From the NCBI RefSeq assembly GCF_024138145.1, contig NZ_CP099997.1:2046001-2110000 (forward strand): a DNA stretch of 64,000 bases, given 5' to 3'. How positions within the stretch are numbered: position 1 is the stretch's first letter; each line of letters begins with the position of its first letter. This document shows, piece by piece, positions 49,707-64,000 of this stretch. The notes beneath the pieces were generated by a model. The model was given only the letters and a program-made list of their open reading frames with translations, was not told the DNA's origin and searched no databases. The stretch is from Natronosalvus halobius (GTDB lineage Archaea > Halobacteriota > Halobacteria > Halobacteriales > Natrialbaceae). A program made the translations under genes and the position numbers.

Positions 49707-50264
49707 ACAGAATACCCGTTCCCGTTTCCCTACTATAAAGGTTCTGTTTGTGAGCGGCGAATTCGGGCTCGAGCGGCCCGATAGAGCGTCTTTACGCACA
49801 CTACCCACCAGAAAGTATATGTCGAATGAAGTTCCGGGGACCGTCGGACCCCCTCGAATCGGCCCAAACTGCCCTCGAACGCGCTCGCGCGCGCTCTCGA
49901 GACGGCCTACCGCCATCCCGGCTGAAGAACGGCGGCCCCGTTCACGGCGTTCGTGGATGTTGGACGACCTCACTGTGGAGGACGACCTCACCGTGGAGGA
50001 CGACTGCACCGATGGGACCATTCGATCGCGATGGACGTTTCATCTCGTATAACCGCCTGATCTGGTCAGCGATATCACTGAGACGGTTCCGATTCGAACG
50101 ACCGACGAACCGCTCGTAGTACGGGACAGTGGCTATCAGGACTGGGAGAGACTGGCCGAAGGAGAAACTCACTCGTACACGAAGTACCAACGTGAGAAGA
50201 GCCTAGGCCGGGACATATACGAAAGGTTCAATGTCCCACTTATTAAAGATACCCCAATCAACAC
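49707..50264. other. Gap before the integrase, no supported gene
   Basis: Contains the DUF1931 promoter and a GAAAGTATATG segment at 49811. There is an 18-bp repeat of the type CTCACCGTGGAGGACGAC near 49970-50005. A plus-strand reading frame from 50053 encodes sequence that looks protein-like (LVVRDSGYQDWERLAEGETH) and may be the 3-prime remnant of a lost gene. The integrase promoter is near 50240. No tRNA is seen here. Confidence 0.4.
49734..49739 (-). promoter_or_regulatory. TATA box of the DUF1931 gene
   Basis: TATAAA on the plus strand (TTTATA on the minus strand), ~30 nt before ATG 49706, implying a very short leader. Confidence 0.55.
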
Positions 50265-51509
50265 ATGCCGGACATCCGAAAGCAGATCACGAACTTGCAC
50301 GAAAGGATCCAGGAATCTAATGACATCAGTGAGAAAGATAAGGAACTTCTCATTGCGTTCAGCGACGAACTCGACCTCCTCAAATCCAAATATTCTGACC
50401 ATCGTCACAACAAACTCCTCCGCCACTGCACCATCATGGCTGAAGAAGCCGGGGAGCTTACCGCGGCACTCGAGGACGAAGACGCCGCGAAAGATATCGT
50501 CCGCTGGATCAACCGGACGTACGACAACGAGTACACGAATCACGACTACCGAACGGCCCTTCGCGTCTTCGGCAAACGCGTCACCGAAGGCGGAGACTAT
50601 CCATCGAGTATCGAGTGGGTTCCGTCCGGGACCTCGAGCAGCCACGATCCTGTTCCCGACCCGGCAGACATGCTCGAGTGGGAAGCAGATATCATACCGA
50701 TGGTTGACGCAGCGAGAAACTCCCGAGATGCCGCACTCATCACCGTCGCCTTCGACGCGGGGCCTCGAGCGGACGAGCTTCGTAATCTCTCGGTCGGCGA
50801 CGTGAGTGATGGCGAACACGGACTCCGGATCTGGGTCGACGGGAAGACCGGACAGCGCTCGGTCGATCTCATACCCAGTGTACCGTATCTCAAGCGTTGG
50901 CTTAGTGACCATCCAGCACCGGAAGATAGTACAGCGCCACTCTGGTCGAAGCTGAACACCGCTGATGGAATCAGCTATCGGCAGTTCCTGAACTGTTTCA
51001 AAGACGCCGCTAAACGAGCCGGCGTCACCAAATCGGTCACCCCGACCAATTTCAGAAAGTCCAACGCGACCTACCTCGCGCGCAAAAGCATGAATCAGGC
51101 GTTCATCGAGGATCGCCAAGGACGAAAGCGTGGGAGCGACGCCACTGCTCACTACGTCGCTCGCTTCGGAACCGATAGCGAAGCCGAGTACGCCCGACTC
51201 CACGGTCTCGAGGTCGACGAAGAGGAACCCGAGCCGATCGGCCCAGTCGAATGTCCTCGGTGTACCAAGGAAAACCCCCCTCACGAGAGTAAGTGTGTCT
51301 GGTGTGGCCAGGTGCTCGAGTACGATGCGGTCGATTCGATCGAAGAGGCACAACGAGACGTCCGGGACGTTGTCCTCCGTCTTGCTAGTGATGACCCCGA
51401 AATCCTCACTGACTTCCAACGGAACCGTGAGTTGATGGATCTCTTCGAAAGTGATCCCGATCTCTACGAAGAAGCACAGGAGTTCGTCGAGAGTCTGCCC
51501 GACGAATAA
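50265..51509 (+). CDS. Tyrosine recombinase with C-terminal zinc ribbon
   Basis: A 414-aa integrase-family recombinase. An N-terminal SAM-like domain (residues 1-~120) precedes the catalytic domain. Arginine I lies in DAGPRADELRNL, lysine in VDGKTGQRS, arginine II in TPTNFRKSNATY, and the tyrosine in ATAHYVARF. The usual histidine of the HxxR motif is not present (TPTNFRKS instead of HxxFRHS), an unusual change. The last ~90 residues contain a zinc ribbon (VECPRCTKE and CVWCGQVLE) and an acidic tail, the layout of haloarchaeal mobile-element integrases. TTATTAAA ~25 nt upstream gives a leaderless start. Confidence 0.9.
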   Translation: MPDIRKQITNLHERIQESNDISEKDKELLIAFSDELDLLKSKYSDHRHNKLLRHCTIMAEEAGELTAALEDEDAAKDIVRWINRTYDNEYTNHDYRTALRVFGKRVTEGGDYPSSIEWVPSGTSSSHDPVPDPADMLEWEADIIPMVDAARNSRDAALITVAFDAGPRADELRNLSVGDVSDGEHGLRIWVDGKTGQRSVDLIPSVPYLKRWLSDHPAPEDSTAPLWSKLNTADGISYRQFLNCFKDAAKRAGVTKSVTPTNFRKSNATYLARKSMNQAFIEDRQGRKRGSDATAHYVARFGTDSEAEYARLHGLEVDEEEPEPIGPVECPRCTKENPPHESKCVWCGQVLEYDAVDSIEEAQRDVRDVVLRLASDDPEILTDFQRNRELMDLFESDPDLYEEAQEFVESLPDE

Positions 51510-53342: not shown

Positions 53343-53573
53343 ATGACCGACCTCGTCTACTACCATCATCCCGACGACGAGTAATATTCACTCGCGTACG
53401 TGACGCTCGACCGCGACGAGATCGACCCCGACGATGGGAAGGTCGAAAGCTACCAACTCGAGGAAACGGTGCATGTCCTCTACACTAACTCCGGGGCGAG
53501 TGGGACAGTCAACGATCCTACCGGAATAGTTCTAAGACCACCCTCTACCCTATACTATCGCCGTGTTGGTTAG
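53343..53573 (+). pseudogene. Broken small gene, in-frame stop at codon 14
   Basis: Starting at ATG 53343, the frame reads MTDLVYYHHPDDE, then TAA at 53382-53384, then YSLAYVTLDRDEIDPDDGKV and onward to TAG at 53571. The downstream part uses GC-rich haloarchaeal codons and acidic residues, so it was once coding. The remnant at ~53123 (TDLIDYIDSGNEMYSLGDVM) matches its start, residue for residue at about half of positions, so the gene was duplicated. The end overlaps the convergent nuclease-like gene by 4 nt. Confidence 0.7.
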
Positions 53574-54427
53574 GCGGGGTTCAGCATCCGATCAAGCATC
53601 TTTCGCCCGTGGCTTTTGTCGGAGTAGAGGGTATCGAAAACCTCTTCGACAGCGATGTAATCTATGCTGTCCTTAGTTTTCGGTTCGTATTCAGCAGGTC
53701 CAAATAACACCAACCGAGCGTTCTCATCAGCGTAATTCCGTAGCCTTTGGATCTTCGATTCCAGTTTATTCGTATCTGACTCTTGGGTTACTTGAGCAAG
53801 AATACGTTCGCTCGCTGTACCGCCGACAATATCCACGTCACGGAGGGTTCGACCGACGGGAAGCGTCGGGAAATACCCCTCAAATTGCACCCGTAGGAAT
53901 TCGTTGCAGGCAACCTCTAACTGCTCAGAGGAAAGTGATCCGACTTCTGCTGGGAGTTGTCCCTCTCGGACTACGGCCCGTACCTGGTCTTCTGCAGCCT
54001 TCCACCGGCAGAGAGAGTGACCTTGTGGGCGCACTGCAGAAAGAACAGGATGGTCTTTAAACGATACAACGTGTATCATCTCATCATCCATCGAGAGGGT
54101 TTTGAATATGCTATCGCCAACGTCTTCCCCAACTGGCTTTGAACCCGGAGGAACGACACCGATCAACATCTCATCTGAGTGAATATCGTAGTCGTTGCCG
54201 TAGTAAGCAGCTATAATAACACCTCTTTCACCGAAATCGTTTAACCGCTGAATTTCACTTTGAGCGGTCGAGTTGTCATAATCCGAGGGGTCGGTACTGT
54301 ATTTTTCACCCCAATGCAAGCCTACCTTCCGTTGGTTCCATAACTTTCTAACGTCCTCTTCAGGTCTTGTTCCGCTAAATTTGTGCCTGAAAAACGCAAC
54401 GTTCAGGTCAGCAATATTGTAACTCAT
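53570..54427 (-). CDS. Hypothetical protein with a PD-(D/E)XK-like core
   Basis: A 285-aa protein I do not recognise as a named family. The N-terminal third has a pattern (KLWNQRKVGLHWG near residue 29) reminiscent of PUA/EVE-like modules. Residues ~165-232 look like a restriction-nuclease core: a helix SSEQLEVACNEFLR, then RDVDIVGG (D197, D199), then a strand RILAQVTQ in which a lysine would be expected, then LRNYADENARLVLFGP. The catalytic lysine is absent (T/Q instead), so it may be inactive or non-canonical. AT-richer codon use suggests recent acquisition. Confidence 0.65.
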   Translation of the reverse strand: MSYNIADLNVAFFRHKFSGTRPEEDVRKLWNQRKVGLHWGEKYSTDPSDYDNSTAQSEIQRLNDFGERGVIIAAYYGNDYDIHSDEMLIGVVPPGSKPVGEDVGDSIFKTLSMDDEMIHVVSFKDHPVLSAVRPQGHSLCRWKAAEDQVRAVVREGQLPAEVGSLSSEQLEVACNEFLRVQFEGYFPTLPVGRTLRDVDIVGGTASERILAQVTQESDTNKLESKIQRLRNYADENARLVLFGPAEYEPKTKDSIDYIAVEEVFDTLYSDKSHGRKMLDRMLNPA

Positions 54428-54654
54428 AGTTACAAATCTGACAGTGGTATATTAAATATATTTGCATTAGCAGAACTGAACATTGGCACGGCTCGGCACA
54501 CTTTGAGCCTCCCTGCAGTAACACGAATGAACTCAGTCTGAATAAGTCAATTCCTGTGCTCAAACACTCACACTATATAGTAGTTATCACAGAATACCTG
54601 GCTACATCGGATATTGGCAAAAACATATATTACCAACATGTACCTTGTCGAAGT

Positions 54655-56085
54655 ATGATTGATCCCGATATTGAGCGCGCACAAATACTCGCCAGACAAG
54701 CGAAACACGAGGCAGTCACAGCGGAACGCTTGACTAAAACTAAAATCGGGATCATACGCTATCGACTACACGACGATCCGGTATACCGGCTCCTTCGGTC
54801 TGATGAACAGCCTCATTTTTTATTCCACTCAAGTCGCCATACACCCGCGTTCAATGGCCCTTCAGCCCCAAAGAAGATTGAGCGATCGCGTCGGTTTCGG
54901 GTGCTTCACCTCATCACTGACTCGAGGTGGGTAATGATCGCTGGAAACCGACGGGGTGATCAGAAACACGAGATCAGACTGGACGAAATCAAAGCCACGA
55001 ACTACGAAACCGGCAATTCGCTTCGATCGAGAATTTCGAGAAACCTGTTTGCTTTGGAAACTGAAGGCGCTCACTACACAATTCCCCTCTCTAATGACTA
55101 TGGGGTAACCGCACTCGAAGAGTTGACCGTCTACCTTCAGGAGACTCATGGGGCGATTGCTGGTGGCGTCGCAGTTGATTCGGATGAAGCAGGGTACACA
55201 ATTGCAGGGAATGATTCGATCGAGTACAGCGAAGCCGATGTCCGCTCGAGGCTCGATCGAGTTCCAGACGCGGCTATGGACGAAGCCAATGAATTACTGG
55301 CAAAAACAAACGACCCCGAGACTCTCGTCCCTCAGTTAAACAGGCTCATCGAACGAGAAGAACAATCGAGTCGATCACTGGACGAGATGGTAAGCGAGGC
55401 GTCATCAGTTGAAGAACTCCGTCGAGAGCTCGAGACACCGGCAGAACGTGCCCAACGGCGAGCAAAAGAGCGGGCCGAAAAAGGGTTTGAACAGGCCCGT
55501 GAGACGTTCAAACAGTCTGACCCGGAAGAAGTCGGGAAATGGGGCGTAAGCGTCGGGCAAGCAGCTCTTCCACTAGCCAGAGTAGCGCCCGGTTCAACAC
55601 CTTTGTGGCTGGCCGCGTATTTCGTTCTTGGTGGTGCTGCTGGCGTTCACGCTAGCGGGAGTAAAGCGTCACCATTAGCTGAGATAGATCCAGAGGCGCT
55701 CGCTGCCCACGTGACCGCGCTAGCACAGGCAGGCAAAGGCCTCGAAAATATCGATGGGGAAGTGACCGGTACGTTACTCGGTGCGTTCACACACCTTGGA
55801 ACCCAGCTTGCCCCCGAGGAATACGCAAAATGGATCGTCGCCGCCGATCCGGAAGCAATTCTCGCAGGAGCCGAAGCAGGTGCAGAATTCGCAATGAGTG
55901 ACGATGTCACCGGTAGTCGAAGACAAGGAGCGGTTGCAGGAGCAGGGCTAGGTGCTCTCGGGAGTTATACTACGAATAGCGATTCAGATGCTTTTCGTGA
56001 GATACTCGATGCAGACCTCTACGAGCAATATCTGAAAGAGATCGCCAGCGAGAACACTCGAGCGCTCGAGACGTCAACAGAATAA
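54655..56085 (+). CDS. PH-like and coiled-coil protein, candidate BREX-adjacent accessory
   Basis: A 476-aa protein. Residues ~40-165 resemble a bacterial PH domain (YRLLRSDEQPHFLFHSSRHT, VLHLITDSRWVMIAGNRRGD, GAHYTIPLSNDYG). A charged helical segment follows at ~240-300 (ELRRELETPAERAQRRAKER). Then there is a Gly/Ala-rich stretch with two possible hydrophobic segments (GSTPLWLAAYFVLGGAAGV and ARRQGAVAGAGLGALGSY-like). It ends 68 nt before the BREX operon on the same strand. The start is ATG 54655. No function assigned. Confidence 0.75.
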   Translation: MIDPDIERAQILARQAKHEAVTAERLTKTKIGIIRYRLHDDPVYRLLRSDEQPHFLFHSSRHTPAFNGPSAPKKIERSRRFRVLHLITDSRWVMIAGNRRGDQKHEIRLDEIKATNYETGNSLRSRISRNLFALETEGAHYTIPLSNDYGVTALEELTVYLQETHGAIAGGVAVDSDEAGYTIAGNDSIEYSEADVRSRLDRVPDAAMDEANELLAKTNDPETLVPQLNRLIEREEQSSRSLDEMVSEASSVEELRRELETPAERAQRRAKERAEKGFEQARETFKQSDPEEVGKWGVSVGQAALPLARVAPGSTPLWLAAYFVLGGAAGVHASGSKASPLAEIDPEALAAHVTALAQAGKGLENIDGEVTGTLLGAFTHLGTQLAPEEYAKWIVAADPEAILAGAEAGAEFAMSDDVTGSRRQGAVAGAGLGALGSYTTNSDSDAFREILDADLYEQYLKEIASENTRALETSTE

Positions 56086-56118
56086 TTAGATCGATACTGT
56101 TCGTGGAACCAAGACACG

Positions 56119-56128
56119 TGAATACTAT
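56119..56128 (+). promoter_or_regulatory. Likely TATA box of the BREX operon
   Basis: AATACTATAG is centred ~30 nt before ATG 56154, the first gene of the brxEABC run. Confidence 0.45.
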
Positions 56129-56153
56129 AGGGACGGTCACCAATCGGTACAGT

Positions 56154-56759
56154 ATGTCAACCGGATCACTCGAGGAAACTCTCACAACTGTTCAAGACGA
56201 GTTAGGATCACTTGGCGTAGAGGATGCGTTAGCGCGTGAAGTGCTCTCGTATCGACTCCTCATCGAACGATTAGGAGAAGATGGCAACAACGACTGGTGG
56301 GATTCTATTGTATTGACCGAAACCGGACGTGACCGGCTCGAAGAGGTAACGCCCAAGACGGCAACGAGGTCTCGTATTGAACTTGCACAGCGCATCGGTC
56401 GAAAGGTGGAGCAAGAGCACGTTCCCGAAGATTCACTTTCTCTCTTCTATCTCGGGCCGACAGCCGAATCACAGATCGACGCCGAGCTCGAGAGCGTAGT
56501 AGATGAAGAGGAGTCCTTCCAGGTACTCGAATCACTCTCGAAGACGATTGAAGAGCCAGGCTGGTCTGAGCGTCTCGCCAGTGACGCTGAACCCGTTTCG
56601 TCGACGACAGACTCGACGATACTGCTCGGCGAGGTTAACGATGAAACAGACCTGAAATCACGAAACACGCTCCGGGACGTTGCCCGTCGGTGTGTACTCG
56701 CGTATGGTCAGTCGACTTCAGCCACCCTCCGAGTGCCCTATTACACCATCGACCGATGA
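56154..56759 (+). CDS. brxE: BrxE-like BREX protein
   Basis: A 201-aa protein. Its first ~120 residues match the BrxE fold: LSYRLLIERLGEDGNNDWWD, the RLLxxLGE...WW signature, then ARSRIELAQRIGRKVEQEH-like and LFYLGPTAESQIDAEL. BrxE is a conserved component of several BREX types with unknown biochemistry. The ATG of brxA begins inside its stop codon, so the two are coupled. It has no catalytic motif that I can identify. Start ATG 56154. Confidence 0.65.
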   Translation: MSTGSLEETLTTVQDELGSLGVEDALAREVLSYRLLIERLGEDGNNDWWDSIVLTETGRDRLEEVTPKTATRSRIELAQRIGRKVEQEHVPEDSLSLFYLGPTAESQIDAELESVVDEEESFQVLESLSKTIEEPGWSERLASDAEPVSSTTDSTILLGEVNDETDLKSRNTLRDVARRCVLAYGQSTSATLRVPYYTIDR

Positions 56760-57550
56760 TGAAACAACCAGTAGATCCGGACGACGTAGAGTACGATTCG
56801 TGGATAGCACACAACACGACGTACATTGAGGAGACAAAGCGCATTCTCGAGGAATATGTTGAGCACGAATCGTTCGATGTTGTCAAAGAACGTGTGATTG
56901 AGAAGAACATTCTGAACAAGGAGACCAACAAGTATCGAAGGCGCGTCTTTCGTGAGATTGCTCGTCGGTATATTCCTCGCGAAGACGAGTACGTCGAAAC
57001 CCCGTTGATGCGTGTACTCGCTTCAGACGTCGACGAGTCCGTCAAAGAGTGGATTCTTTATTACGAGTTTTCCCAGAATAGTCTGATCCATCGTGTGACA
57101 GTCGATTTCCTGTATCAGAAATATACGTCGGGAGCGCTCCTTATTCAAGCACCCGAAATCCGGGCGTACATCACTGAATTAGGGGAAGATCACCCCGAGA
57201 TACAGGACTGGTCGCAGAGTACGCTCGAAGAAGCGAGTACGAAGTATCTGAGTTCTCTTAAGAACTTTGGGCTGTTGAAGGGAGTACAGGAAAAAGAGTT
57301 TGCGGTGTTCTACGTGCCAGACGAAGCGATCGCGTACGTTTGCTATCGACTATACGGAAGCGATGCTGAAACTGTCGACGAGCTCGTTTCACATCCTGAT
57401 TGGCGGCTCTTTCTCTTTGACGAAGACGAGGTGCGACGACGACTGCAAGGAATCAGTCCACGGTACGTCCGATACGAAAAACGAGGCAGCACCGAACGGA
57501 TCGAACCGGTATTCGACGACATTAACGAGGTTATCGATGACTTCGAGTAA
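56756..57550 (+). CDS. brxA: BREX protein BrxA (DUF1819)
   Basis: A 264-aa protein of the BrxA/DUF1819 family, a helical NusB-like fold reported to bind DNA. The N-terminal part is ETKRILEEYVEHESFDVVKE, with VIEKNILNKETNKYRRRVFR following, and toward the end EEASTKYLSSLKNFGLLKGV. It starts at 56756 or, equally, 56759 (double ATG). Its last 14 nt overlap brxB. Part of the core set brxA-brxB-brxC-pglX that defines a BREX system. Confidence 0.88.
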   Translation: MMKQPVDPDDVEYDSWIAHNTTYIEETKRILEEYVEHESFDVVKERVIEKNILNKETNKYRRRVFREIARRYIPREDEYVETPLMRVLASDVDESVKEWILYYEFSQNSLIHRVTVDFLYQKYTSGALLIQAPEIRAYITELGEDHPEIQDWSQSTLEEASTKYLSSLKNFGLLKGVQEKEFAVFYVPDEAIAYVCYRLYGSDAETVDELVSHPDWRLFLFDEDEVRRRLQGISPRYVRYEKRGSTERIEPVFDDINEVIDDFE

Positions 57551-58100
57551 CGTACAATCGCGAATGGAGGAACTCGAGTCGCTTACGATAGACAACCGTG
57601 AACGGATTGGCCGACGGACAGGTGTGCCGTTCATTGTCTTCACGTACGACCCAAAAGATGAGCTCTCCGTCGAAGAGACAATTGATGCATACGTGAAAAA
57701 ACTCCGGAACCGGAGGCAATCAGTCGAGCTCATCGACATGCGCGATCTCGTCTTTTCCCTCCTCGAGGAGGAACGGATCCTCGATGCCGTGATTGAGAAA
57801 GAGCAGGCTGACGAAGGTGAGTTAAGCGAAGGACTCTCTTCTGTTCTTCTTGGCGGTCGAACGGATGAACAGGGACTCATCGCCGAAACGATCAAAAGCC
57901 GAATCGGTGATGTCGAGACCGCGGTCGTGTACCGAACCGGTATCTTGTATCCCTTCGCAGGGATTTCCTCGATTCTCATGCAGCTGGAGAACGAGATCGA
58001 GACGCCGTTCGTGGTATTCTATCCGGCGGTCAAGGATGACAAGAGTTTAAAATTCCTCGACAAAACAGAGGGAGCATACTACCGCGCTCGGGTGATCTAA
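57537..58100 (+). CDS. brxB: BREX protein BrxB (DUF1788)
   Basis: A 187-aa DUF1788 protein. Conserved positions are VPFIVFTYDPKDELSVEETI, LIDMRDLVFSLLEE and, near the end, YRTGILYPFAGISSILMQLE with FVVFYPAVKDD, the last being the P-loop-independent strand region of this family. BrxB works with BrxC and PglZ in phage exclusion. It overlaps brxA by 14 nt and precedes brxC by 1 nt, so all are co-translated. Confidence 0.9.
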   Translation: MTSSNVQSRMEELESLTIDNRERIGRRTGVPFIVFTYDPKDELSVEETIDAYVKKLRNRRQSVELIDMRDLVFSLLEEERILDAVIEKEQADEGELSEGLSSVLLGGRTDEQGLIAETIKSRIGDVETAVVYRTGILYPFAGISSILMQLENEIETPFVVFYPAVKDDKSLKFLDKTEGAYYRARVI

Positions 58101-58101
58101 T

Positions 58102-61100
58102 ATGAGTTCAAACACGATTACGACGATTGAGGACATCTTCTATCGGAAGATCGATCGACACATCAACCGCGTCGTCAAGGTCGAGCAAGACGATACGGAG
58201 ACGGTTAAACAGGAACTCGACGAGTACGTGCTGACCGGCTCTCTCGAGCAACACTATCTGAAGATTCTGGAAGCGATTCGGGAGACGGAACACAATCCAA
58301 CTGACGAGACGGGCGTTTGGATCTCCGGTTTCTTTGGGTCAGGGAAGAGCCACTTCATGAAGATCCTCGGCTACGTACTGGAGGATAAGACCCTTCCAGA
58401 CGGTCGATCGGCGTCAGATGCGTTCAAACCGCGAGCGCAAGACGAGACGCTAAAGGCGACCGTCGACGCCGTGAGCCGAACGTTCGATTCTGAAGTGCTG
58501 ATGTTCCAAATCGGGTCGCGAACGAGCAGGGCCGGGGAAGATTCGATCACCGACGTCATCAACCGCGAGTTCAATCGGAAACGTGGCTACGCAGAACTCC
58601 CGTGGGTCGCTCGACTCGAGGAGGATCTCGAAAACGAAGGGCGATACGAAGCGTTCAAGGAAGCAGTAGAGGCTGAGGACGGTCGAGAGTGGGAAGACGT
58701 TCGTCAAACCGCAGCGTTCGTCGAGCCGAAAATCGAACAGGGGCTTATCGATGCCGTTCCCGGCTTCGACGAACAGGACGCGAAAAATGCGATAACGAAC
58801 GTCAAAGAAGAGCCCGAGATCACTCCTGCTTCGCTGGCGGAACGAATTCTCAATTACGTCGAACAGAAAGAACGGAAGACGGACCAGGACGTGCGCTATT
58901 TCGTCTTTCTCGACGAAATTTCGCAGTTCATCGGCGACGACGAACAGATGCTCCTCGAGTTACAGAGCATCGCCGAAGAGTTCGGCCAGCAGGGTATGGG
59001 TAAACTGTGGCTCGGCGTCACGTCACAGGAGAAACTCGAGGAACTCGTTCCAGGTGTCCTCGCAAAAAACCTCGAGGAATCAAAGGTCGGGGACCGATTC
59101 CCACACCAAACTGACCTAATCTCCGACAACCTCGAGGACGTCGTCCGCGATCGAATTCTACAGAAGAAGGGAGAGGCAATCCCGTCGATCGAGTCGTTGT
59201 ACGACGAGAACGAGGGAAGGTTGAGTGCCAGGTACAAACTCCATTCGTCCCGTCAGATGGAGTCCATCGAGGAGGAATCCTTCGTAGAATGCTACCCGTT
59301 TCTGCCATATCAGCTAGAGATCCTCCCTCAGATCTTCGCCGCTCTTCGAGGAAGAGGGTCAGACGATCGGTTAACGGGACGAGAACGAACACTCATCGAC
59401 GTTACACAGAGCGTTTTCAACGAACCACACAACCTGCGAGATCGAGAGCTGGGTTCGCTCGCTACGCTCGATCTGGTGTACGAAGAGATCGTCGAGGACA
59501 TCGACGATGACGATCAGCGGACGATCGCCAACGCGGCCCCACAGGAAGTCGACGAGGAATTAGCACGTCGAGTACTGAAATCACTCTACCTGCTCCAGCG
59601 GCTCGACTGGATTCCGAATACGGCAGCGAACGTCGCGACGACACTATACGACGAAATCGGCGACATGAGTGCCCTCGAGAGTCAGATCGAGGAGGTACTC
59701 GAGCAGCTAGTCGAGGAGGGGTACGTCGGCCGAAGCGAGGAGGGGTATCGGTTCCTGCAAGAATCCGAACGAAAACTCGAAGACGAAATCGCCTCGGTCA
59801 ACGTAAACGAAGGCGAAATCCGCCGTCGATCAAAAGCGTTCGTCCGCGAGAGCCTGGACAACGCCGATACGGTTCGGTACCGAGAACAGGCGTTTTCCCT
59901 CTCGATTGAGGCTGATGGTGAGCAACTTTCGGACAAAGGGTACATTCATCTCCATGCGTACTCGCCCGTTCATCAGCAGTACGAGGAGGTCGATCCGCGG
60001 ACACTGAAGACCCAGAGTTTCGACCAGGGGGACACGATTTACTGGATCGCCGACGACAGCGATGCAGACGACATCAAGAGTCGAATCAAGCGCATTACCC
60101 AGATCGAGCAGATCGTTTCCGAGAAACGAGGCCAGCAAACCAGTGCCGAAGAGCAGGAAGCACTCGACCAGAAGAAGGAAGATCTCACACGGATGCGTCG
60201 AAGCGTCGAGCGAGACATTGATGCCGGTTTCCAGACGGGGACGCTGATCTATCACGGCACCGAGACGAATCTGGAGGAGTCTGGCACGCGACTTGATCGA
60301 ATCGTCCAGGATCCGGCTCGAGACGCGGTTGAACGTGTCTTCACCAAACTCGATGACGGGTTAGGAAGCGTAAGCAACCGGAATATCGAAGCTCTATTCG
60401 GTGATATCGAAGGGCGGTCGAACCCGGCAGTGTTCAAAGAACTGAATATCGTCATCAACGGCGAATTGAATCCGGAAGCTCGGATCGCAAGTGAGGTGGC
60501 CGACGAGATCGACGCTCGAGAGAAAACCGGTGACGTACCCACCGGGAAAGCGCTGATCGAACATTTCGAGGAACCACCGTATGGATGGAGTCGCGACGTG
60601 GTCAGGCTCGCGGCTGCCGTGCTGTTCCGGAACGGTTCGATCATGGCGATCTACAAGGAGCAAACGTTCGACAGTTACGTCGACGACGGTGCACAGGAGG
60701 TGTTCACACAGATTTCGAAGTTCCGGGATGCCTCCTTCAAGGAACGTGAGACGGTCGACCCCGAAGTTCGAAACGAAGCGAAACAGACCCTGGACATCCT
60801 GTTCGATAAAAAGGTCAAACAAACCGATCAAGAAGTCGCACAGGGGATTTCGGAGGTCTCGAGTGAGTGGATTGAGAAGTGCAAAGAGCGGCAGACGAAA
60901 CTCGACGACGCCTTCTTCCCGCTCCGCGATGAAGCAAAGCGGCTCGTTACCATACTCGAAGGGATCCGCGGTAAAGGTACGTCTGCCGCAAAGATCAACG
61001 CGTTCCTCGAGCACAAGGACGAACTGGAAGATCTAGTCGATACGGTGAAGAAAATCGTCCAGTTCGACCAGTCTGGCAAACTCGAGAAGTACGCCATCTA

Positions 61101-61722
61101 TCGTGAGTTCCTCGAAAACGAGTGGGAAGAGTTCAAAACGCTCGAACAGACGTCGTCGTTCGTCGAGATTAGCGACGACGTCCACGAGGCAGCTAGGCAA
61201 CTCGAGGGTGAGATCGATTCGACGGCGATCATGGAGAACTGGTCGAACGTCGAGACGGATTATCACACGATCGCTAACGCCTACGCTCGAACGTACGAGG
61301 ATCTCTACACGAAACGGTACGAGTTGTACTCCCGTGCAGCCGACGACGTCCGTGCTCTGGGTGCTGACCTCGACAACGACGACCTGGAGACCGCGGTCGA
61401 GCCGTTGACGAGCCGGATGGGGAATGCATCGATTTCCATCGATGTCGATGGACGTTCGCACCTGAACCTCAATCCGAGTCTCAAACAGTTGAGTGAGTAC
61501 CTCCAGACCGTCGACTCTTATCGCCGGACGGCTCGGGATCTCGTCGATAAACTTCGACCAGAAGACGAGAACGTCACCCACCACCGTGTCGAACTCGAGG
61601 AATTCTTTGGTGGGGTCGTCGTGAGTGAGGAATCCGACCTCGATGCGCCAATTGACCGGCTTCGGACGGAAGTGCTCGAATTACTCGAGGAGGAAGGAGA
61701 GGTCGAGGTACACTTCGAGTAA
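58102..61722 (+). CDS. brxC: BREX P-loop ATPase BrxC
   Basis: A 1206-aa ATPase, the usual BrxC/PglY size. Walker A is ISGFFGSGKSHFMKILGYVL (GSGKSH at residues ~79-84) and the Walker B-like motif is RYFVFLDEISQFIGDDEQML (~266-285). The N-terminus begins ITTIEDIFYRKIDRHINRVV, typical for BrxC. The remaining ~900 residues are helical and include long coiled-coil regions. It is essential in characterised BREX systems and probably couples ATP hydrolysis to phage-DNA sensing or blocking. It ends 130 nt before an unrecognised gene. Confidence 0.95.
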   Translation: MSSNTITTIEDIFYRKIDRHINRVVKVEQDDTETVKQELDEYVLTGSLEQHYLKILEAIRETEHNPTDETGVWISGFFGSGKSHFMKILGYVLEDKTLPDGRSASDAFKPRAQDETLKATVDAVSRTFDSEVLMFQIGSRTSRAGEDSITDVINREFNRKRGYAELPWVARLEEDLENEGRYEAFKEAVEAEDGREWEDVRQTAAFVEPKIEQGLIDAVPGFDEQDAKNAITNVKEEPEITPASLAERILNYVEQKERKTDQDVRYFVFLDEISQFIGDDEQMLLELQSIAEEFGQQGMGKLWLGVTSQEKLEELVPGVLAKNLEESKVGDRFPHQTDLISDNLEDVVRDRILQKKGEAIPSIESLYDENEGRLSARYKLHSSRQMESIEEESFVECYPFLPYQLEILPQIFAALRGRGSDDRLTGRERTLIDVTQSVFNEPHNLRDRELGSLATLDLVYEEIVEDIDDDDQRTIANAAPQEVDEELARRVLKSLYLLQRLDWIPNTAANVATTLYDEIGDMSALESQIEEVLEQLVEEGYVGRSEEGYRFLQESERKLEDEIASVNVNEGEIRRRSKAFVRESLDNADTVRYREQAFSLSIEADGEQLSDKGYIHLHAYSPVHQQYEEVDPRTLKTQSFDQGDTIYWIADDSDADDIKSRIKRITQIEQIVSEKRGQQTSAEEQEALDQKKEDLTRMRRSVERDIDAGFQTGTLIYHGTETNLEESGTRLDRIVQDPARDAVERVFTKLDDGLGSVSNRNIEALFGDIEGRSNPAVFKELNIVINGELNPEARIASEVADEIDAREKTGDVPTGKALIEHFEEPPYGWSRDVVRLAAAVLFRNGSIMAIYKEQTFDSYVDDGAQEVFTQISKFRDASFKERETVDPEVRNEAKQTLDILFDKKVKQTDQEVAQGISEVSSEWIEKCKERQTKLDDAFFPLRDEAKRLVTILEGIRGKGTSAAKINAFLEHKDELEDLVDTVKKIVQFDQSGKLEKYAIYREFLENEWEEFKTLEQTSSFVEISDDVHEAARQLEGEIDSTAIMENWSNVETDYHTIANAYARTYEDLYTKRYELYSRAADDVRALGADLDNDDLETAVEPLTSRMGNASISIDVDGRSHLNLNPSLKQLSEYLQTVDSYRRTARDLVDKLRPEDENVTHHRVELEEFFGGVVVSEESDLDAPIDRLRTEVLELLEEEGEVEVHFE

Positions 61723-61852
61723 TTAGAGTCCATTGTACGTTCTTCATTTCAGATTGTGTGTACCACTGTCGTCTTTCCGGCAGAGATTATGTGACGAATT
61801 TGAGGGTGTGGATGTATAGGTTTAATTCAACAAGAGATACAACTCCAATCTC

Positions 61853-62569
61853 ATGGTCGACGAGATCCCGGAGGAATTACGAAGTGATATCGAATCTTTC
61901 TTCGAAGAGTATGATCCATCGTTAAAAGATTTGATCTTTCTTCAGGTTGAAGTGCTTATTGAAGAAGCAGAGGACGAGTTTTTGGAAGAATGGGAAAAAT
62001 CCGACGAGGAGGCTAATATATACAGCAAACCGTATGAATCTGATGGCGCGATGATCTGGCGGCTTACCGAACAGATAGGGATTGACGCCGATTTTGTGAC
62101 CTGGTGGTTGGCAGCTATCTCCTTCAACGACGACGGCGGGCCTTTCTACTTGGTTCATGAACGATCTGACCAAATCAGGCTGAGCGGCGTTAAACTCGAG
62201 GATTTACCGAGGCTTGCGGAGGGCTTTCAGGCCGTTGAAAAGCATTGGTTAGAGGAAAGAGACCAACAGAAAGTAGAGGAAACCCGGCAAGAAGGAACGT
62301 CCCTTCCAGCAGTATCTGAGATCCCACCAGCAAAATTCACAGATGACGATTGGGAGTGGATTTTGGATTCCAAAGCAGCGAAAAGTGGGGGAGATACGTT
62401 AGCGATTAGGCGAGCCCCAGTACTCGATCAAGGTTCGCTCAGCACCTATGTTCTTGAACGGCGAAACGCTTCCAAAGATGACAGTTCAATTCCGATCGGG
62501 GCATTTTGGGGCCATCACGGTGGATTCTTTCAGAGCGCCATCGAAGAGGCATATGATCGGTTAATATAA
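61853..62569 (+). CDS. Unrecognised 238-aa gene inside the BREX locus
   Basis: An acidic cytoplasmic protein inserted between brxC and pglX. Residues 1-~60 are helical and strongly negative (EAEDEFLEEWEKSDEEANIY). A central segment FVTWWLAAISFNDDGGPFYL with LVHERSDQIRLSGV follows, then EGFQAVEKHWLEERDQQKVE. The C-terminus is IPIGAFWGHHGGFFQSAIEE. No signal peptide, membrane helix, nuclease or kinase motif is evident. Codon use is AT-richer than the BREX genes around it. Standard BREX operons do not have a gene here, so this may be an added accessory or cargo gene. Confidence 0.85.
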   Translation: MVDEIPEELRSDIESFFEEYDPSLKDLIFLQVEVLIEEAEDEFLEEWEKSDEEANIYSKPYESDGAMIWRLTEQIGIDADFVTWWLAAISFNDDGGPFYLVHERSDQIRLSGVKLEDLPRLAEGFQAVEKHWLEERDQQKVEETRQEGTSLPAVSEIPPAKFTDDDWEWILDSKAAKSGGDTLAIRRAPVLDQGSLSTYVLERRNASKDDSSIPIGAFWGHHGGFFQSAIEEAYDRLI

Positions 62570-62698
62570 TTTTGTATCCGGCAAGGTAGATAGTCAGGTC
62601 GGCGAAACACTAGATTGATACGGATGCTGTCTGTGTTAGGTATCATACTGTGTCGGGGATGACACCATCGTTCCCGAACCAACGGACATACATCTACT

Positions 62699-64000
62699 AT
62701 GGCAGCTACGACCCATCAGAACGGCCTCAGTGCGGACGATCGATCAGACATTCGAAGTACCATCCTGAGCGCGCGATCGACACTCGAGGAGGAGTTCGAA
62801 CGCCAACTCGAGCGCTACGGCATTTACGACGACGATCGTGTGCCGGTGAATTCGCTCTCACACCTCTCAGTGGAAGATATCGCGACCCGAAAGGAGATTG
62901 ACGCGGCGTTAGAACGCGAACTCGAGGCAACTGACGGACTCTACGGCCGAGCCTACCAGAACTACATCCGCGAGGCGACCAAGGAGTATCTCAACCGCTT
63001 CGTGGGGATGAAGACGATCGAGGCGCGGGAGCTGGTCACCGAAACCCTCCGTAGGCGACCGGAGTACGGTGGACGGTCGTACATGCACTACACCGTCGAC
63101 GAGATTGCAGGGGAGTTGACTGACGCAACCGACGACGGCCTCGGGGCTGCTCTGGATCTTGCCTACCAGGAGATCGGCTCGGAGATCCGAGTGTTATTCG
63201 ATGGCTCCGACTACACAGCCCTCGAGCCGGATTTCGCGATTCGACGGGAGATTCTTGAGGAACTCGACAAGCTCGGTGATGACGTATGGCAGTCAGACGA
63301 GGCGATGGGCTGGGTGTATCAGTTTTTCGGAGAGAACGAACGAGAGGAGATCGACCAGCGGATCAACGATGAGAACTACAAAGTGCAAGATACGGACGTA
63401 GCGACGAAGACCCAGTTGTTCACGCCGCGCTACATCGTCGAGTGGATGGTTGACAACTCGCTGGGACGATTGTGGCTCGAGATGCACGGCGACAAGACGA
63501 ATATTGACGACGAAGACAAGTGCTTCCACCTCGCGCCGCTCGAAAAGTCGTTGATCGACCGCGACGTGAAAGACGTGCGTGAGATCAAGGTGCTGGATCC
63601 AGCGTGTGGCAGCGGTCACATGCTGTTCTATGCTTTTGACGTATTATACGAGATGTATCTCGAGCAGAGTGATATCCCTGAAAGCCACATCCCGCGGGAG
63701 ATTTTGAAGCAAAATCTCTATGGGGTCGACATTGATGAAGGGGCGGCCCAGATCGCAGCCCTAGCTCTGTACGTGAAGGCGAAGAGCCACGCACCGGAGG
63801 TAGCTATCGAAGGGATGAATATCGTCTCGGCAAACGCGGTGCTCATTAACGGCGATAAGAAACGGCAAGTACTCGAAAGAGCGGATTCGGAACTCGAACG
63901 ACGTGTCCTCGAGCAGGTCTGGGCGAGTTTTGAACATATTCGCGAGTGGGGGAGTCTTGTCCGGATCGAGGAGCAGATCGAAGCGATCATCGAAGAAGAA
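62699..64000 (+). CDS. pglX: BREX adenine-specific DNA methyltransferase PglX (3-prime end missing)
   Basis: Partial, 434 aa to the window edge; the whole protein is normally ~1200 aa. It starts at ATG 62699, the first ATG after the in-frame stop at 62660. The N-terminal part (EEEFERQLERYGIYDDDRVP) is followed by a conserved helical region. The SAM-binding motif I is VLDPACGSGHMLFYAFDVLY (D300), followed by QNLYGVDIDEGAAQIAALAL. These are the PglX/type II N6-adenine methyltransferase signatures. The NPPY catalytic motif lies beyond the window. In BREX, PglX methylates host DNA at asymmetric sites so the host is spared, and is required for phage exclusion. Confidence 0.95.
   Translation, partial: MAATTHQNGLSADDRSDIRSTILSARSTLEEEFERQLERYGIYDDDRVPVNSLSHLSVEDIATRKEIDAALERELEATDGLYGRAYQNYIREATKEYLNRFVGMKTIEARELVTETLRRRPEYGGRSYMHYTVDEIAGELTDATDDGLGAALDLAYQEIGSEIRVLFDGSDYTALEPDFAIRREILEELDKLGDDVWQSDEAMGWVYQFFGENEREEIDQRINDENYKVQDTDVATKTQLFTPRYIVEWMVDNSLGRLWLEMHGDKTNIDDEDKCFHLAPLEKSLIDRDVKDVREIKVLDPACGSGHMLFYAFDVLYEMYLEQSDIPESHIPREILKQNLYGVDIDEGAAQIAALALYVKAKSHAPEVAIEGMNIVSANAVLINGDKKRQVLERADSELERRVLEQVWASFEHIREWGSLVRIEEQIEAIIEEE

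Follow-up and report, generated by a model that had tools for sequence, protein, structure and literature searches.

Genes embedded among the core genes of BREX loci are a known source of additional defenses, as BrxU and PARIS illustrate. In E. fergusonii pEFER, the gene inserted between brxC and pglX encodes BrxU, a GmrSD-type IV restriction enzyme that defends alone (PMC8565348). Embedded genes, many of which encode nucleases, have been described as widespread auxiliary or backup effectors of BREX operons (PMC12839542), and in ~7000 of ~9000 genomes the gap between pglX and pglZ holds genes, most of them not recognized as defense (PMC11341690). The Salmonella BREX locus has a terminator between brxC and pglX (PMC9009780). 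The literature that we searched, main texts readable without subscription, yielded little on BREX in haloarchaea and no paper on the cargo of haloarchaeal BREX slots.

Here, we analyze a 64,000-nucleotide stretch (the window) of the haloarchaeon Natronosalvus halobius (NZ_CP099997.1) that contains the part from brxE into pglX of a type-I-like BREX locus; the locus as a whole has two foreign stretches, one on either side of pglX. The first stretch encodes an acidic 238-residue protein, orf238. orf238 shares with BrxU (PMC8565348) its non-core status and its exact place in a type I BREX locus, but BrxU carries DUF262 and DUF1524 domains and is a proven nuclease defense, whereas orf238 matches no family; the GmrSD gene of our locus lies between pglX and pglZ instead of in the brxC–pglX slot that brxU occupies in pEFER. 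Like the effectors of PMC12839542, it is an extra gene embedded in a BREX locus, although the catalog as presented there consists of known nuclease folds, none of which orf238 shows here. PARIS (ariA-ariB) is likewise an accessory beside pglX, but in the pglX–pglZ slot and made of other proteins (PMC11341690). By its non-core position between core genes, in a variable slot, orf238 is of a known kind, the BREX-embedded accessory gene exemplified by BrxU; its family is new.

On balance, orf238 is probably a stand-alone accessory gene, a cassette in a BREX cargo slot that is most likely antiviral on its own and dispensable for BREX. It would have been inserted downstream of the brxE-A-B-C operon and ahead of the pglX leader, would be expressed from its own promoter and act without BREX, and would not be needed for BREX methylation or restriction; as with BrxU in pEFER, its most likely contribution would be a separate antiviral activity alongside BREX. 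This reading builds on a conserved protein, a variable slot, absence from comparable loci, and a homologue outside BREX near relatives of other slot cargo. Mapping the slot to the base in haloarchaea, and recognizing it as a swap site that adjoins the specificity gene, makes each of its occupants, orf238 included, a candidate for a new antiviral gene, testable in isolation.

The BREX Locus and Its Island

The locus is ordered brxE-brxA-brxB-brxC-(orf238)-pglX-(wHTH/TM ORF, GmrSD)-pglZ-brxL. It opens with a BrxE-family gene (56103..56759, +), identified by tblastn and by the annotation of the homologous plasmid NZ_CP100395.1, which is kept upstream of brxA in most related loci (tblastn). It is followed by brxA (56690..57550, +; Pfam BrxA, E 4e-18), whose true start is probably internal, near 56756, by brxB (57510..58100, +; Pfam BrxB, E 2e-14), which probably starts near 57537, and by brxC (58102..61722, +; PADLOC PDLC02471, E 3e-184). 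The window ends within pglX, the 5' part of which spans 62699..64000 (+; PADLOC PDLC02527, E 3e-65); read further along the same chromosome (region L008), the gene continues to 66412. Between pglX and pglZ, a 310-aa ORF (66495-67427; L008:7496-8428) shows a helix-turn-helix and membrane segments by eye and matches nothing in Pfam; on the opposite strand lies a GmrSD-type gene (67801-69615; L008:8802-10616), the type to which BrxU belongs.

The last 14 nt of a tRNA-Thr gene, itself located outside the window at 76237-76308 (L008:17238-17309), recur at 50200..50213 (−) as a probable att site just before a tyrosine integrase gene (50265..51509, +; Pfam Phage_integrase, E 3e-14), and this repeat suggests that the BREX locus rides on an integrated island of ~26 kb between the integrase and the tRNA. 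A same-genus sister BREX locus is on a plasmid, whereas ours is on this apparent chromosomal island. Upstream of brxE lie ORFs of 509 aa (54556-56085) and, on the other strand, 285 aa (53570-54427), both with no Pfam match above cut-off and possibly further island cargo.

The orf238 Gene and Its Homologue

orf238 occupies 61853..62569 (+; 238 codons, ATG start), 130 nt from the brxC stop codon and 129 nt from the pglX ATG. Open reading frame analysis and PADLOC profiles confirm what an earlier note had reported, an acidic 238-aa ORF between brxC and pglX, in the same direction and with gaps of ~130 nt. Its orientation may allow co-expression by read-through or may reflect a BREX-related role. 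A weak TATA-box-like hexamer recognized by eye, TTTAAT (61821..61826, +), stands ~27-32 nt ahead of the ATG and would fit, if weakly, a promoter of its own and a leaderless transcript. The GC content of orf238 is 48.0% (GC3 49%), below that of brxC (55.1%), pglZ (57.1%), and the window overall (63.1%); low GC is common to the entire BREX island, and gmrSD is lower still at 44.6%.

Profile searches with orf238 found nothing in NCBIfam (E ≤ 0.1) or PADLOC (E ≤ 1) and nothing above cut-off in Pfam, and a sequence search against solved structures returned nothing significant. A PD-(D/E)XK, Mrr, GmrSD, or HEPN domain was not recognizable by the Pfam, NCBIfam, and PADLOC profiles, the fold models being of low confidence, and neither a catalytic motif nor a domain or motif tying the protein to antiviral activity was recognized. 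The best Pfam hit, DUF7615 (PF24590), was rejected as a family assignment at 13.6 bits and E 0.1 against a curated cut-off of 27 bits; the N-terminal part alone scores 14.7 bits, and the homologue described below has no DUF7615 match. A search of 61 relatives found no DUF7615 member, an absence that says little in a set where the controls likewise found none.

That orf238 is more than a chance ORF and, judged from sequence, a real gene is indicated by a homologue that is similar in length, aligns over the full protein, and comes from a genome in a different family. This homologue, a 233-aa protein (orf233) encoded in genome G202 of the same order, matches residues 2-234 at E 9e-51 with 42% identity (43% in the alignment, 41% by blastp), and the two proteins share the clusters IGIDxDFVxWWL, FQAxExHWLEE, TLAIRRA, TYVLE, and PIGxFWGHH. 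Real matches were confined to our gene and that of G202 across 391 genomes of the class, 392 of the order (overlapping draws), 125 of family f1, and 170 of f4. None of the 146 genomes of f3 has the family, the single marginal match there (G432) being a chance frame; three other marginal matches were also dropped as chance, one in a PQQ-propeller-like ORF (G016, by eye) and the others, like G432, in low-complexity or unrelated frames (G208, G364). No homologue was found in 50,697 phage records or 72,556 plasmids, nor in IMG/VR (pattern scan only) or GTDB contigs, the contig scans having used short conserved peptides with lower sensitivity. The best reading of these searches is that the family is new, very rare, and haloarchaeal.

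orf238 has a pI of 4.24 and carries a net charge of −0.139 per residue; among the 40 acidic ORFs in the window that reach 150 aa, it exceeds 37 in acidity, and all its neighbors are acidic as well. Its N-terminal part, at −0.185 per residue, could bring to mind an acidic anti-restriction protein, DNA-mimic-like and derived from a mobile element. Against this origin, the phage, plasmid, and IMG/VR searches (the last by pattern scan only) gave no homologue, acidic proteins are common in haloarchaea, and the gene is carried inside a restriction-type locus; we regard a DNA mimic as highly improbable.

The G202 gene lies outside BREX. G202 is absent from the BrxC-positive genomes of the class, and orf233 stands alone between divergent and convergent neighbors that encode a nucleotidyltransferase with a helix-turn-helix and a DUF4145 protein. 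At 11-19 kb from it lie relatives of three other BREX slot-cargo families: a PD-(D/E)XK-like relative of the L046 slot-1 cargo (E 5e-15), a 456-aa protein related at E 5e-11 to a slot-2 cargo protein of 172 aa, and an ORF recognized by eye as TBP-like; a methyltransferase is also nearby. Members of the PD-(D/E)XK-like family are present at 21 places in 20 of 145 genomes, and assuming a rough average of 3.6 Mb per genome, the chance of a copy in a 34-kb stretch is on the order of 0.001. We count this proximity as moderate evidence, spotted post hoc among many families compared, and with a single homologue the defense-island context of the orf238 family is drawn from two loci.

The brxC–pglX Interval Across Haloarchaeal BREX Loci

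A BrxC profile matched 82 of the 391 class genomes, and 25 regions surrounding its strongest same-type hits were retrieved. The brxC end and pglX start were readable in 24 of them (L064 was dropped, its contig ending before pglX), with two loci of one genome, G367 (L067 and L068), counted separately. The interval, hereafter slot 1, is empty in half of the 24 loci, with 183-194 nt from the brxC stop codon to pglX; in the other half it is filled with 631-1873 nt of other DNA, usually a single ORF in either orientation. The ORF was taken as real in 11 of the 12 filled slots; L052 was counted by gap length only, its 153-aa slot ORF (pI 10.6) being probably spurious. A Halomarina plasmid also has an empty slot 1, of 138 nt.

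No orf238 homologue was detected in any of the 24 loci (tblastn, E ≤ 1e-4), including one with a 98% identical BrxC; a type I BREX core gene would be expected in nearly all loci of the type. Given its absence from comparable loci and the location of the G202 copy outside BREX, orf238 appears not to be a BREX component. The same results weigh on the possibility that it regulates or modulates BREX in this one locus, acting, for example, on pglX expression or on the BrxC–PglX interaction: its place inside the locus, directly upstream of pglX and on the same strand, would suit such a role, but it is missing even beside the nearly identical BrxC, its homologue is found in a genome without a BrxC match, and it has no DNA-binding domain that we could find. 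We judge a locus-specific modulator unlikely. The system-specific accessory (inhibitor, regulator, or immunity factor) put forward in the earlier note does not fit these data, and the check proposed there, for homologues at the same position in other haloarchaeal BREX loci, came out negative in all 24. Homologues lying always elsewhere, which the note had named as evidence against its proposal, is largely the pattern seen, on the single homologue in G202.

The cargo of the filled slots is diverse. It includes genes with Mrr_cat (L053, Pfam) and NucS_C (L058, Pfam; L062, below the Pfam cut-off and 68% identical to L058), the candidate defense PDC-S50 (L056, PADLOC), a TBP (L051, Pfam), a transposase-like ORF (L057, by eye), and small or unknown-family ORFs (L047, L061, L065). 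A further family, present in L044, L046, and a Halomontanus plasmid, has conserved residues that are PD-(D/E)XK-like; its sequence search against solved structures gave nothing significant. Nuclease-like or candidate-defense genes thus occupy 6 of the 12 filled slots, and some cargo, namely the TBP and the transposase-like ORF, is not defense.

This mixture bears on whether orf238 is a neutral or selfish passenger, a metabolic or orphan gene gained by chance at a harmless transcription-unit boundary. The non-defense cargo, the lack of a recognized defense domain in orf238, and a low GC content, as in recently acquired DNA, would agree with a passenger; the share of nuclease-like and candidate-defense genes in the slot does not, nor does the position of the only homologue near relatives of other BREX-slot cargo, since random passengers are not expected to recur in this way. 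We consider it a fairly unlikely explanation. The earlier note's alternative of an unrelated passenger survives in that orf238 is optional cargo, but "unrelated" does not, since the slot repeatedly takes nucleases and other accessory genes.

The interval between pglX and pglZ is a second variable slot (slot 2), holding GmrSD, TBP, SMC/ABC-type, HAD, and unknown-family genes. TBP paralogues recur beside pglX, in slot 1 of L051 and in slot 2 of L045, L051, L054, L056, L059, L067, and L068; they were assigned by Pfam for L051 slot 1 and L045, and by blastp to these for the remaining loci. The two BREX loci of G367 have the same 189-nt brxC–pglX gap, and in one of them brxC and pglX are split over frames.

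Predicted Structure of orf238

The full-length model of orf238 (pLDDT 41) was set aside; a model of residues 152-238 reached pLDDT 64. The sequence and the low-confidence models suggest two parts: an acidic N-terminal one, largely helical, in which the core IGIDxDFVxWWL...DGxPxYLV is conserved, and a C-terminal domain of ~75 residues (TLAIRRA...TYVLE.R...PIGxFWGHH) that is modeled, at low confidence, as alpha-beta-beta-beta-alpha. Foldseek returned only weak matches to the C-terminal model (viral RNase III, E 0.11; ADAR1 dsRBD3, E 5.9), the best VIA-align 2 score was Z 5.5, to AcrIF24 entries, and nothing in the fold searches rose above noise. Double-stranded RNA-binding domains (dsRBDs) have a basic KKxAK motif; the C-terminal part fits their topology at pLDDT 64, with the weak Foldseek matches above, and lacks this motif. 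We weighed resemblances to AcrIF24 and to dsRBDs and claim neither, the fold matches being at noise level. As a guess, the C-terminal part would sense or bind, coupled to a helical effector or partner-binding part.

A predicted sensor would also suit a guard of BREX, which, like PARIS, would detect viral inhibitors of PglX or BREX and trigger an abortive response. There is precedent for PARIS within BREX (PMC11341690), the cargo adjoins the specificity gene, and the C-terminal alpha-beta-beta-beta-alpha domain could be the sensor; the profile searches, however, found no ATPase, Toprim, HEPN, or other effector signature in orf238, and its G202 homologue stands without BREX. A guard function seems to us quite improbable, and we retain the stand-alone accessory as the preferred reading.

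Cassette Borders and the pglX Region

A blastn comparison with the same-genus locus L044 resolves the borders of the insertion. The two loci are 93.8% identical over 56095-61723, where homology stops at the brxC stop codon, and none is seen until 62598, 101 bp before pglX. Because L044 homology breaks and restarts at these points, orf238 appears from the alignment to be an inserted cassette, with the brxC end on one side and the pglX leader on the other. Accessory slot 1 thus extends over 61723..62597 (no strand assigned), from the brxC stop codon to the conserved pglX upstream region, and its right border is this upstream region (62598..62698, +), which is conserved in our locus's own clade (L044, L046, L047).

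Beyond slot 1, identity to L044 is 82% over 62598-64377, absent to 65676, 86% over 65676-66412, absent again to 69716, and then 93.5%. Slot 1, the middle of pglX (64377-65676), which from its position is probably the target-recognition part, and slot 2 therefore all differ from L044, and the remaining pglX ends are less alike than the core. In comparisons with L046 and L047, which are more distant, identity is 74-83% for the main end pieces of pglX, about the same as for the core (79%). Because the pglX ends lag behind the core in the comparison with L044 but not in those with L046 and L047, the alignments suggest that everything from slot 1 through slot 2 was exchanged as a block; faster evolution of pglX is an alternative that would also accommodate the pattern. 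A bolder proposal, which we offer tentatively and would not ourselves expect to hold in full, is that orf238 is the founder of a new haloarchaeal family of single-gene antiviral systems, its C-terminal domain being nucleic-acid-sensing-like. The gene would reside in one of a pair of swap slots on either side of pglX, and pglX specificity and partner defenses would be swapped as one block between haloarchaeal plasmids and islands.

In 19 second-clade loci (L048-L063, L065-L067), the right border of the slot is a conserved TATA-like box and leader upstream of pglX, which places the cargo at a transcription-unit boundary. The pglX upstream region in these 19 loci is ~110 nt long and contains a hairpin with compensatory changes in 3 of 10 predicted pairs. 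A leader of ~110 nt is unusual in haloarchaea, and this one may control PglX dosage.
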